Shown here: positions 35,412 to 38,338 of the stretch, one piece after another
Layout of the letters: every line of letters begins with the position of its first letter
Numbering within the stretch: position 1 is the first letter of the stretch
The notes under the pieces: model-generated
The model's input: only the letters and a program-made list of their open reading frames with translations
The model's database searches: none
Told to the model about the DNA's origin: nothing
From: Labilithrix sp.
GTDB lineage: Bacteria > Myxococcota_A > Polyangia > Polyangiales > Polyangiaceae
DNA: 38,676 nt
Direction: 5' to 3'
Assembly (NCBI GenBank): GCA_019637105.1
Contig: JAHBWF010000067.1
Location: 1 to 38,676 of the forward strand
Program-made: the position numbers and the translations under genes

Positions 35412-36113
35412 TCAGGCGGCCTCGCGCCAGCGCCCGCCGGTCGGCGAGGGCGCGTCGGTGACGGCGCGCGCGAGCTCCGCGCGGATCGTCCCGAAGGCGG
35501 CCGCCAGGGCGCGCGTCGTCGGGTTCGACTCCGAGCGCGGCGTGGCGAGCTCGGCGCCGACGTCGTCGAGCGCGGTGATGGCGCGCGGCGCCAGCTCTCC
35601 GAGGCGCGACCACTCCTCGTCGGGATCGAGCGCGAGCCGCTCGGTGATCTCGAGCTCGCGCGCGAGGAACGCGCAGTAGGCGAGGAGGTCGTGGCGCAGG
35701 GCGACGGGCGCCGTGGAGACCTCCCAGAGCAGCGTCGCCGCGCGCTCGACCTGGAGCTCGAGGCCGTCCCACGCCCCGCTCGGCGGGGTGACGCGCGCGT
35801 CGCGGTACGCCCGCCGCTCGCCGAGCGCGCGCAGGATGCTCGCGTCGAGGCGCTCGCGCTGGAGCGCGCGCTCGTAGTCGTCGGGCGGCGGGAGCGTGGC
35901 GGAGGCGGCGGCGTCGGTCATGCCTCCCGCTCGTGCAGCCGGCGTGCCGCCGCGCTCGTCCCGCGTGAGCTCGCGGAGTCGCTCGCGCGCGGCTCGAGCG
36001 GGAGAGGGGGAGCCGAGGGCGAGCGTCATCGCGCCGTCGCTCCGCGGCCGCTCGGCGCGGAGCGACGCGGAGCGCGGCGTCACGACCTCGTCGCATGAGG
36101 CGCCGAGCGTCAT
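35412..36113 (-). CDS. Hypothetical helical protein
   Basis: A helix-rich soluble protein of unknown function, 233 residues from ATG 36113 or 169 from ATG 35921. The C-terminal 165 residues (from PPPDDYERALQRERLD) have clear coding composition and predicted long helices (LQVERAATLLWEVSTAPVA, LLAYCAFLARELEITERLA). The N-terminal part also has high third-position G/C but is low in structure. GGGAGG stands one base before ATG 35921, too close to be a good ribosome-binding site, and no TANNNT or Shine-Dalgarno is seen before ATG 36113, so the start remains open. No signal peptide, membrane segment or known motif. It is divergent from tig. Confidence 0.6.
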   Translation of the reverse strand: MTLGASCDEVVTPRSASLRAERPRSDGAMTLALGSPSPARAARERLRELTRDERGGTPAARAGGMTDAAASATLPPPDDYERALQRERLDASILRALGERRAYRDARVTPPSGAWDGLELQVERAATLLWEVSTAPVALRHDLLAYCAFLARELEITERLALDPDEEWSRLGELAPRAITALDDVGAELATPRSESNPTTRALAAAFGTIRAELARAVTDAPSPTGGRWREAA

Positions 36114-36212
36114 CCCTGCGACGGTCGCCGCCGGCGGGCGCGCGCTCGCGACGCGAGGCCAGCGGGCCGCGTCGAGGAAGGCGGGCGGGGCGATCGGTCC
36201 GAGTCGCGCCCC

Positions 36213-36240
36213 TTGACCCCTAACGCTCAGAAAGTATTGT
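36213..36240 (+). promoter_or_regulatory. Sigma-70-like promoter of tig
   Basis: TTGACC (36213-36218, five of six) and TATTGT (36235-36240, four of six) with a 16-bp spacer. Transcription would begin near 36247, which excludes the in-frame GTG at 36239 as the tig start. Confidence 0.55.
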
Positions 36241-36253
36241 GGCCGCCCTCAAC

Positions 36254-36301
36254 TTGGGGACCTCCCCAACCACCTCTATTGGAGGTCGACCTTCGGTCGA
36301 C
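36254..36301 (+). promoter_or_regulatory. Structured tig leader with sequestered Shine-Dalgarno
   Basis: The leader holds hairpin 1 (36254-36269, TTGGGG-ACCT-CCCCAA), an ACCTC at 36272-36276, GGAGGT at 36281-36286 and hairpin 2 (36285-36301, GTCGACC-TTC-GGTCGAC). GGAGGT can pair with ACCTC (five-base loop) or with ACCTCC at 36260-36265. If hairpin 2 forms instead, the Shine-Dalgarno is freed and brought to about nine unpaired bases from GTG 36311. These states exclude one another. Confidence 0.5.
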
Positions 36302-36310
36302 GCGACTCAC

Positions 36311-37669
36311 GTGGAAGTCACCGTCCAGCGAATCTCGCCTGTCGTCATGGAGCTCTCGGTGGAGATCCCCGCCGATTCCGTGAAGGCTCAAGTCGACAAG
36401 GCTTACCTCAACCTCGGCAAGAAGGCGCACGTCAAGGGGTTCCGGCCCGGCAAGGCGCCGCGTGACGTGCTCTCGCGCCTGTTCGGACCGCAGGTCGCGA
36501 ACGACGTCGCGAACGCCATCGTCAACGACACGTTGCCGAAGGTGCTCAGCGAGAAGAACCTGACGCCGGTGAACCAGCCGTCCGTCGAGGCCGGCCAGGG
36601 CGTCGATCCGAAGAAGGCGTTCTCCTACAAGGCGCGCTTCGAGGTTCAGCCCGAGATCGAGGACGTCAAGTACGAGGGCTTCGAGCTCTACAAGCCGAAG
36701 GCCGAGGTGCCGGACGCGTCGATCGACGAGCAGCTCGAGCAGCTCCGCCAGCGCAACGCCGCGCTGAAGGCGCCGGACCCGGCGCGCCCGGCAAAGGCCG
36801 GCGACGTCGTCACGATCGACTTCACGCTCTCGGTCGACGGCAAGGAGGTGAAGGACGGCGGCGGGCAGGGGGTCCAGCTCGAGCTCGGGGCGGGGCAGGC
36901 GCTCCCGGAGATCGACGCGGCGCTCGTCGGCAAGAACAACGGCGACAAGGTCACCGCGGAGCACACGTTCCCCGCCGAGCACCCGCGCGAGGACTTCCGC
37001 GGGAAGAAGGGCGTCTTCGACATCGGGATCGTCGACCTCAAGGAGCGCGTCCCGCCGGCCCTGGACGACGAGTTCGCCAAGGACATCGGCTTCGACACGC
37101 TCGTCGCCCTCCGCGCGGACGTGCACACCAAGCTCGAGAAGGCCTTCAAGGACCGCGCGGAGACGGTGCTCGCCGAGCAGATCGTCGCGAAGCTGAACGA
37201 GCTGAACCCCTGCGACGTCCCGCCGTCGCTCGTGGAGCAGCAGTGCCGGATCATGGAGCAGGAGGTCGTGATGCAGGCCCGCCGCGCGGGTCAGCGCTTC
37301 TCGAAGGAGCAAGCCGAGGCGCTCCACCACGCCATCCACGCGGACGCCGAGCGCAAGGTGCGCGCGGGGCTCCTCATGGCGGCGATCGCGCGGAAGAACG
37401 AGTTCAAGGTCACCGACGAGGACCTCGAGAAGGGCATGCAAGAGCTCGCGGCCGAGACGGGGAAGAACGTCGCGAAGCTGCGTGTGGAGTACCGCGAGAA
37501 GTCGAAGCGTGACATCTTGATCGGCATGATCCTCGAGGACAAGATCCTCGACTTCATCGAGTCGAAGTCCAAGATCACCGAGGGCGAGCCGCCCAAGCCC
37601 GAAGCCGAGCCCGCCGCGGCGGCATCGAAGCCCGAAGAGACGAAGTCCGAAGAGAAGAAGGAAGGCTGA
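36311..37669 (+). CDS. tig: Trigger factor (ribosome-associated chaperone and prolyl isomerase)
   Basis: A 452-residue chaperone that binds the ribosome exit tunnel and folds nascent chains. The N-terminal ribosome-binding domain has the signature GFRPGKAP (43-50). The FKBP-type isomerase domain spans about 150-240 (GDVVTIDFTLSVDG), then a helical C-terminal chaperone domain to about 425 (LRVEYREKSKRDILIGMILEDKI), and a charged Lys/Glu/Pro/Ala tail. The frame is open from GTG 36239, but that codon overlaps the promoter -10, and the family start corresponds to VEVTVQRISPVVMEL, so GTG 36311 is chosen. clpP follows three bases after the stop. A trigger factor next to clpP and clpX is a common arrangement. 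Confidence 0.93.
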   Translation: MEVTVQRISPVVMELSVEIPADSVKAQVDKAYLNLGKKAHVKGFRPGKAPRDVLSRLFGPQVANDVANAIVNDTLPKVLSEKNLTPVNQPSVEAGQGVDPKKAFSYKARFEVQPEIEDVKYEGFELYKPKAEVPDASIDEQLEQLRQRNAALKAPDPARPAKAGDVVTIDFTLSVDGKEVKDGGGQGVQLELGAGQALPEIDAALVGKNNGDKVTAEHTFPAEHPREDFRGKKGVFDIGIVDLKERVPPALDDEFAKDIGFDTLVALRADVHTKLEKAFKDRAETVLAEQIVAKLNELNPCDVPPSLVEQQCRIMEQEVVMQARRAGQRFSKEQAEALHHAIHADAERKVRAGLLMAAIARKNEFKVTDEDLEKGMQELAAETGKNVAKLRVEYREKSKRDILIGMILEDKILDFIESKSKITEGEPPKPEAEPAAAASKPEETKSEEKKEG

Positions 37670-37672
37670 CCC

Positions 37673-38338
37673 ATGAAAAGGCCGGAGACGCGAGCTCAGG
37701 CGCTCGAGGTGCTCGAGCGCCACAAGGACGTCTTGATCCCCAACGTCGTCGAGACGACGCACAGGGGCGAGCGCGGGTGGAGCATCTTCGACCGCCTGCT
37801 CAAGGACCGCATCGTGTTTCTCTATGACGAGATCCACGACATGCTGGCGAACGTGATCATCGCTCAGTTTCTCTTCCTGGAGAGCGAGGATCCCGACAAG
37901 GAGATCATGGTCTACATCAACAGCCCCGGCGGCGTGGTGACCAGCGGTCTCGCCATCCACGACACGATGCAGTACGTGCGGTGCGACGTCTCGACCACCT
38001 GCCTCGGCATGGCGGCGTCGATGGCGGCGGTGCTGCTCGCCGCGGGCGCCAAGGGCCGGCGCAACGCCCTGCCGAACGCGCGGATCATGATCCACCAGCC
38101 GATGGGCGGTGCGCGTGGTCAGGCCTCCGACATCGAGATCCAGGCGCGCGAGATCCGGCACCTCAAGGAGGTGCTGACCGACATCCTCACGAACGCCACC
38201 GGCAAGAACAAGGATCAGATCCTCAAGGACATCGATCGAGACTTCTACCTGGGAGCCGCAGCGGCGAAGGAGTACGGTCTCATCGACAACGTCATGCTGC
38301 CCCCGAAGAAGAAGAGCGACGGGAGCAAGGACAAGTAG
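37673..38338 (+). CDS. clpP: ATP-dependent Clp protease proteolytic subunit
   Basis: A 221-residue serine peptidase that forms the tetradecameric chamber served by ClpX. The triad is S116 (GMAASMA), H141 (IMIHQPMGG) and D190 (DRDFYLG). YINSPGG (81-87) is the oxyanion-side strand. The N-terminus before LIPNVVE (from residue 21) is about ten residues longer than in many ClpPs and may include a propeptide; the C-terminus is Lys-rich. ATG 37673 is three bases after the tig stop. It is followed by clpX after 178 bp, which holds a separate promoter candidate. Confidence 0.97.

Follow-up and report, generated by a model that had tools for sequence, protein, structure and literature searches.

The tig leader of a Labilithrix-like bacterium is most likely an inserted copy of a hairpin repeat, probably with its own ribosome-binding site, and not a temperature sensor

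The stretch of DNA analysed here, referred to as the window, comprises 38,676 nucleotides of Labilithrix sp. (contig JAHBWF010000067.1, forward strand) and is contained in an 8.45-Mb assembly (GCA_019637105.1, hereafter G000). Three further genomes of the genus, G001, G006 and G007, carry the same insert upstream of tig. In the window, the trigger factor gene tig is followed on the same strand by clpP, and the features of the locus are as follows.

36213..36240, + strand: tig promoter, ancestral and older than the insertion (TTGACC 36213-36218, TATTGT 36235-36240, spacer 16)
36252..36310, + strand: inserted repeat copy forming the tig leader, matched by covariance model R1; exact ends uncertain by a few nucleotides
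36254..36269, + strand: hairpin P1, TTGGGG-ACCT-CCCCAA, arms 36254-36259 and 36264-36269, −9.0 kcal/mol alone
36272..36286, + strand: P2, the SD-hiding pairing ACCTC(T)/GGAGGT, −6.0 kcal/mol alone, its 3' edge competing with P3
36281..36286, + strand: candidate Shine-Dalgarno (SD) sequence GGAGGT, equivalent to GAGGT/GTGGT of the repeat family when aligned with the copies
36285..36301, + strand: hairpin P3, GTCGACC-TTC-GGTCGAC, a palindrome, −9.5 kcal/mol, the proposed 17-nt loop-out between SD and start
36311..37669, + strand: tig, trigger factor, GTG start (TIGR00115, 377 bits, cut-off 180)
37673..38338, + strand: clpP, the next gene (NF001368, 305 bits, cut-off 249)

According to the alignment, GTG 36311 corresponds to the ATG at which Tig begins in relatives (MEVTVQRISPV / MQVTVQRISPV). 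The upstream starts GTG 36239 and TTG 36254 were rejected on two grounds: the leader is one nucleotide longer in two of the four insert-bearing species, and GTG 36239 lies inside the −10 box. The leaders of G007 and G001 measure 65 nt, against 64 nt, and are out of frame with tig, which argues against an upstream start unless they reflect assembly errors. GTG 36239 is in frame (window 36239-36311) and, taken mechanically as the start, would add 24 residues; gene callers could mis-start tig there. The tig transcript would begin near 36247.

The initial annotation had proposed that this leader may be an RNA thermometer or folding switch, one fold hiding the SD and another bringing it within working distance of the start. 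The promoter at 36213-36240 and all the sequence features it listed were found at their coordinates, and two segments could pair with the SD, ACCTCC at 36260-36265 and ACCTC at 36272-36276. GGAGGT does end 24 nt short of GTG 36311, and the proposed geometry is supported: with the second hairpin (P3) formed, 17 nt would be looped out and the SD would lie about 9 nt from the GTG. The 94-nt fold is modestly stable (−32 kcal/mol, z = −1.88), with 6 of 200 shuffled sequences folding as well; folding energy alone is thus unconvincing, and the comparative evidence is stronger. Inspection of the sequence for an attenuator or terminator revealed no U-run after P3.

The four orthologous leaders are 82–98% identical, and the 120 nt preceding them are identical in 34–51% of aligned columns. 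The promoter is identical at 34/34 positions in G000, G006 and G007 and at 33/34 in comparisons with G001 (97–100%). GGAGG and the hairpin that follows it, P3, are retained in all four leaders. The 23-nt block formed by the SD and P3 does not vary among G000, G006 and G007; G001 has a single substitution in it, which preserves a U-G pair. Four-fold sites are 68–83% identical, compared with 23/23 or 22/23 positions in this block (Fisher's test, p = 0.003–0.03 in the five pairs tested out of six, which are not independent). The block was picked after the alignment had been seen and the species are four and related, so the comparison is only suggestive of selection on the SD and P3. The 5' part of the leader is more variable between most pairs (27–34 of 34–36 columns identical).

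The P1 stem is invariant in the four species while its loop varies, and the same stem occurs in many copies of the G001 repeat described below. The segment ACCTCC at 36260 is replaced by AGATCC in G001, G006 and G007. The partner at 36272 reads CCCTC in G006 and G007, where 4 bp are possible, and ACCAC in G001, where the P2 pairing is lost; P2 equivalents in the G001 repeats read ACCAC/GTGGT or CCACC/GGTGG. Of the two-fold model, the geometry survives comparison, with GGAGG and P3 kept in 4/4 leaders, and the hiding fold does not, with the 36260 partner gone in 3/4 and P2 lost in G001. Conservation of the paired segments among relatives was borne out for P3, which covaries, and not, across all four species, for the SD-masking strands.

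Folding was predicted at eight temperatures for the four orthologs. In G000, G006 and G007 the minimum-free-energy (MFE) fold consists of P1, a short P2 and P3, with the SD paired, and is unchanged from 20 to 50 °C. The predicted probability of a free SD core in these three leaders is 0.001 at 25 °C, 0.010–0.011 at 37 °C and 0.02 at 42 °C; in G001 it is 0.07, 0.21 and 0.28, respectively. The MFE fold of G001 has the SD paired into the P3 region at or below 25 °C, and P3 formed with the SD free from 30 °C. This predicted switch of fold, falling between 25 and 30 °C, is the only result that resembles a thermometer; the temperature series suggested by the initial annotation gave a change of MFE fold in one ortholog and none in the other three. 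By predicted fold the SD is sequestered at low temperature in all four species, least in G001.

From 25 to 42 °C, SD opening changed 16-, 20-, 19- and 4-fold in G000, G006, G007 and G001, respectively. The control comprised 300 mononucleotide shuffles per species of the leader parts around the SD, for which the median changes were 18-, 17-, 18- and 15-fold (reported range 14- to 18-fold); 55, 45, 50 and 84% of the shuffled leaders changed as much or more. In all four species the SD was more open at 25–42 °C than in 92–99% of shuffled leaders, and a separate run for G000 agreed (95–99%). The hairpins would therefore leave the SD more accessible than it is in leaders of like composition, and the temperature response is ordinary.

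RNA thermometers such as ROSE and fourU elements hold the SD in a local hairpin of the 5' leader. A thermometer or two-state switch at tig would hide the SD in the cold by P2 or the 36260 pairing and open it by heat or another signal. Such control would fit the paired SD in the MFE fold of G000, G006 and G007, where heating from 25 to 42 °C raises opening from 0.1% to 2%, and the G001 leader, which switches its predicted best fold between 25 and 30 °C, opening going from 7% to 28%; P2 and P3 also overlap, and a P2 equivalent exists in the G001 repeats. Set against this are a change from 25 to 42 °C no larger than in shuffled leaders, an SD more open than in 92–99% of them, an MFE fold fixed from 20 to 50 °C in three species, the loss of the 36260 partner in 3/4 orthologs and of P2 in G001, and the lack of an Rfam match. 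With an ordinary temperature response and hiding partners that are not all conserved, we consider a thermometer or conserved switch very improbable. The Rfam search of 36100-36500 yielded nothing, even with E values up to 5 admitted, and the excerpts of literature returned by our search contained no account of this repeat or of thermometer control of tig.

The origin of the leader was traced by comparing 96 tig loci from the genus and family (L001-L036, L116-L175). The motif TTGAC lies 38–44 nt upstream of the start in 40/96 loci, compared with a mean of 0.4 and a maximum of 3 in 200 shuffled sets. Counted from the first base of the −35 box, transcription begins some 35 nt downstream, and promoters at this distance would thus give a leader of about 3–9 nt. 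Many family tig genes (L005-L034, L116-L175) have a promoter about 40 nt before the ATG and no SD. We consider tig of many family members to be a probable near-leaderless housekeeping gene. The four insert-bearing loci have TTGAC 98–99 nt before the start; among the other nine genus members it lies at 38–43 nt in seven, TTGAAC lies at 41 nt in one, and L010 has neither form. About 60 extra nucleotides between promoter and start are thus found in only 4 of the 13 genus genomes, the window's included. The start codons of the 96 loci are 91 ATG, 4 GTG and 1 non-start codon at the aligned position, the GTG codons being confined to the same four insert-bearing loci; the element's final base may be the source of the G in GTG.

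An SD-like 4-mer occurs within the last 20 nt before the start in 17/96 tig loci. Since relatives mostly have no SD at tig and may initiate without one, GGAGG in the insert may be unused. This agrees with a neutral insertion, whereby tig would start independently of an SD at GTG 36311 and the hairpins would do nothing. The SD and P3 are nonetheless more conserved than four-fold sites, and a copy before nuoN independently repeats the layout of SD, hairpin and start; we regard a neutral insertion as improbable.

Copies of the insert at other loci were sought by BLAST with a 72-nt leader query over 59 relatives, and those counted besides the four tig leaders are diverged. One copy precedes a multihaem cytochrome c gene in G006 (E = 1.3e-9), one lies in the nuoM-nuoN gap of G007 (E = 2.2e-5) and one precedes nusG of G007 (E = 1.4e-4); G006 also carries the nusG copy. 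The cytochrome c gene of G006 matched Cytochrome_C7, with a QrcA-like match below the cut-off, and we take it to be actA of alternative complex III; the gene upstream of nusG at the nusG copy is presumably secE. The cytochrome copy is known from the G006 locus only. The nuoN insert occurs in G007 only: in the 12 remaining genus genomes, the upstream sequence inspected shows no copy; the empty site in G006 and G000 consists of TGA, a short gap and ATG. The nusG insert is present in G006 and G007, and the site is empty in G001 and G004; the G000 assembly yielded no nusG. At tig, nuoN and nusG the insertion is thus polymorphic, relatives having empty sites. These filled and empty sites, together with the tie to a multicopy repeat, lead to the reading of the tig leader as an insertion, which is well supported by the sequence comparisons.

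Several further matches were set aside. A nusG copy in G005 (BLAST E = 1.6e-4; L539, L195, G005:C141) was dropped as probable assembly contamination, because NusG of this contig is 100% identical to that of G007 and G005 has a second nusG. L193 (G007) and L196 (G006) were not counted as copies since they match chiefly in P3 and have no P1 (BLAST E = 4.1e-5 and 0.001, R1 E = 3.3e-7 and 1.8e-4, respectively; the G007 match spans 26 nt). Both have a P3-like hairpin, TGTCGACCTTCGGTCGACGCG (GGCGCG in L196), about 80 nt before a PspA/IM30 gene (PF04012). L306-L309 were not counted because they match mostly in P1. Their likeness is limited to the P1 half: ATTTGGGGGAGATCCCCAAGTACCTCTC follows a shared conserved flank in L307 (G000:C57), L308 (G007:C132) and L309 (G006:C212). 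No other full copy was evident in G000, where the next BLAST match had E = 0.069 and the next R1 match E = 4e-4. The Rfam search of the seven other-copy loci returned no family, only an unrelated tRNA.

A covariance model, R1, was built from the tig-leader copy (36252-36310) and five other copies. Among the 150 candidates scored per genome, it gave 42 matches at E ≤ 1 in G001 versus 2–15 in the other 12 genomes. The G001 repeat is about 53 nt long and has the form ACTTGGGG-CTCGCG-CCCCAACCACC-CGCA-GAGGT-GGGCC-TTC-GGCCCGC, with copies in tandem; its order of hairpin, GAGGT and hairpin is that of the tig insert. Its core pattern has 70 hits in G001 and none in the control, although one expanded copy may give two hits, and 0–3 hits in each of the other 108 family genomes (0–2 in reversed controls). 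The single core hit in 377 phylum genomes, among which G001 was not sampled, and three hits in viral contigs were discarded; they have no hairpins over about 80 nt and so look like chance. Some G001 copies (L496, L498, L494, L500, L519) are expanded internally by tandem 21-nt P2 units (GTGCCCCAACCACCCGCAGTG), up to several of them. Copies L508, L515 and L518 are flanked by CGTCCAA ... TTGGACG arms, and L515 and L518 (= L294 and L297) share a downstream GGGGAGCTCGAGGG..CCCCTCGA hairpin; the shared arms and downstream hairpin at these two loci suggest a larger composite element.

The link between the tig leader and the G001 repeat was evaluated with a profile of 27 G001 copies. The G000 tig leader scored 7.8 bits, against 1.2 for the best of 2000 shuffles, and the G001 tig leader 6.2 bits, with 0/2000 shuffles as good. 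The nusG copies scored 11.3 bits in G007 (0/2000) and 9.2 bits in G006, and the cytochrome copy weakly, at 3.1 bits (3/2000 shuffles as good). The tig leaders of G006 and G007 and the nuoN copy received no score. The case for this link is therefore made by two tig leaders, those of G000 and G001, and by nusG; orthology connects the tig leaders of G006 and G007, and the nuoN and cytochrome copies are tied in through the tig-type copies only.

The surroundings of the repeat were examined at 39 G001 loci, a non-random set fetched from among the matches listed, with genes called by a simple codon-score method that had been trained on five genes. Both neighbours were called at 29 loci; four were dropped because they were called inside a gene, five for want of a called flank and one because the copy was not re-found. 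The downstream gene is on the same strand at 24/29 loci. Between co-directional genes, 14 copies are in sense and 3 in antisense (p = 0.013); a further 10 lie between divergent and 2 between convergent genes (p = 0.039, uncorrected for the tendency of divergent gaps to be longer).

Covariation was assessed over 35 copies, namely 28 of 41 G001/G006-type stretches and 7 tig, nusG, nuoN and cytochrome copies; the 13 stretches left out were truncated by internal duplication or had no P1. P1 and the 5' arm of P2 formed part of the search anchor, so covariation is claimed for P3 alone. In P3, 89.6% of cells are paired, versus 78.4% in shuffles and 30–55% in slid versions. Double-change cells number 24 versus 6.5 in shuffles (0/500 as high), and the covariation score is 0.343 versus 0.167 (0/500). 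Double changes affect 4 pairs and there are 8 further pair types; neither count exceeds shuffles (225/500 each), because the changes are carried by few subfamilies.

The orientation bias of the G001 copies (24/29 on the same strand; p = 0.013 and p = 0.039), the presence of growth and respiration genes next to the copies outside G001, and the covariation of P3 would also be expected of a cis-regulatory RNA or protein-binding leader that spread by copying and unites tig, nusG, nuoN, cytochrome c and G001 genes in a regulon. Such a regulon is unlikely in our judgement: presence of the element varies between sister species (the nuoN copy is in 1/13), and the G001 copies are tandem or internally expanded. 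Furthermore, the exact core is at background in the other 108 family genomes and absent from 376/377 phylum genomes, and a hairpin recognised as single-stranded DNA would covary as well.

Taken together, the comparisons indicate that the tig leader is most likely not a temperature sensor but an inserted copy of a hairpin repeat, probably with its own ribosome-binding site. On balance we favour the fuller reading, in which it is a fixed copy of a dispersed hairpin repeat of 53–60 nt serving as a split-SD leader. In one branch of the Labilithrix-like genus, the repeat would have landed between the start codon and an ancestral promoter of the near-leaderless type, moving promoter and gene about 60 nt apart. 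This copy would then have become the 5' leader, its built-in GGAGG acting as the SD and P3, by looping out, setting the spacing to GTG 36311. P1 and P3 would occupy stretches otherwise able to mask the SD, and P2 would leave it partly open, which may give a constitutive, moderate translation rate with no sharp switch.

At tig, the candidate SD and the start are over 20 nt apart and a stable hairpin lies between them, P3 being predicted in G001 only from 30 °C. The same arrangement recurs in the nuoN copy of G007 (CGGAGG, hairpin, 11 nt, ATG); the nusG copy sits before a normal-looking SD and need not work as a split SD. On this reading, ribosomes would use the split SD at tig. Two predictions speak against it: SD opening is low in three leaders (p about 0.01 for G000, G006 and G007 at 37 °C, against 0.21 for G001), and P3 does not form in G001 at or below 25 °C. 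A wider possibility, which we put forward tentatively and hold to be rather doubtful, is that the repeat is a portable leader, a mobile hairpin that lands in sense just before start codons with a full split ribosome-binding site and so could part a gene from its promoter or native SD and still leave it unsilenced, giving a leader to a housekeeping mRNA that had been near-leaderless.

If the split-SD reading of the inserted copy is true, it describes how a small mobile repeat can turn into a 5' leader with a working ribosome-binding site. It would also explain how a repeat can come to lie between promoter and start codon without killing the gene, and it would provide a natural change from near-leaderless to leadered in a housekeeping chaperone gene, with filled and empty relatives for comparison.

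How the repeat moves may be judged from its copies and their edges. Many intergenic hairpin copies, as in REP sequences, were found in G001 (70 hits; 4/39 loci called inside a gene). A RAYT/REP transposase was discarded as the mover: PF01797 (Y1) has no match in G001, G006 and G007 and one weak match below the cut-off in G000, all searched as incomplete assemblies. P3 is preceded by GAGG, GTGG or GGAG, and is followed by CGTT or CGTC in many G001 copies and not in the tig copy. The tig insert has CTCA at each edge and the nuoN insert has ACTC, with no rule common to the three loci; neither a consistent target-site duplication at these loci nor a mobilising enzyme was found.

Among known systems, the repeat resembles REPs in being a short intergenic hairpin sequence, multicopy in one genome and partly in tandem, as far as the available excerpt of PMC3733652 describes them. 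According to the same excerpt, REPs with GTAG or CGTC tags lie mostly downstream of genes and between unidirectional and convergent genes. In contrast, the G001 copies are mostly upstream in sense (29 loci), the element measures 53–60 nt instead of 20–40, and no GTAG precedes P3 (PMC3733652, excerpt). Correia elements, which are MITEs, lie immediately upstream of genes, and the accessible portion of a review (PMC10969869) names promoters, an IHF site and sRNAs as effects of MITEs such as these; the main text of the review contains no occurrence of ribosome or Shine-Dalgarno. Like them, the tig-type repeat is a small non-coding insertion near a promoter, of a kind that changes host-gene expression (PMC10969869, same portion). 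No terminal inverted repeats or consistent target duplications were recognised at the tig-type repeat.

The tig leader shares with ROSE and fourU thermometers an SD in a local hairpin of the 5' leader of a chaperone-protease operon, and differs from them in having no conserved masking strand, no unusual in-silico temperature response and no Rfam match. A likeness is also offered by phage T4 genes 38 and 25, where, in the excerpt available (PMC3014915), an intervening hairpin cuts the distance between SD and start from 22 to 5 nt and from 27 to 11 nt, respectively. At tig, a distant SD would similarly be brought near by a hairpin, from 24 to about 9 nt (PMC3014915, excerpt). Unlike the T4 genes, tig is a chromosomal housekeeping gene whose candidate SD and proposed loop-out hairpin come from a dispersed repeat; if the reading is true, this leader would be a chromosomal counterpart to the split SD of T4.
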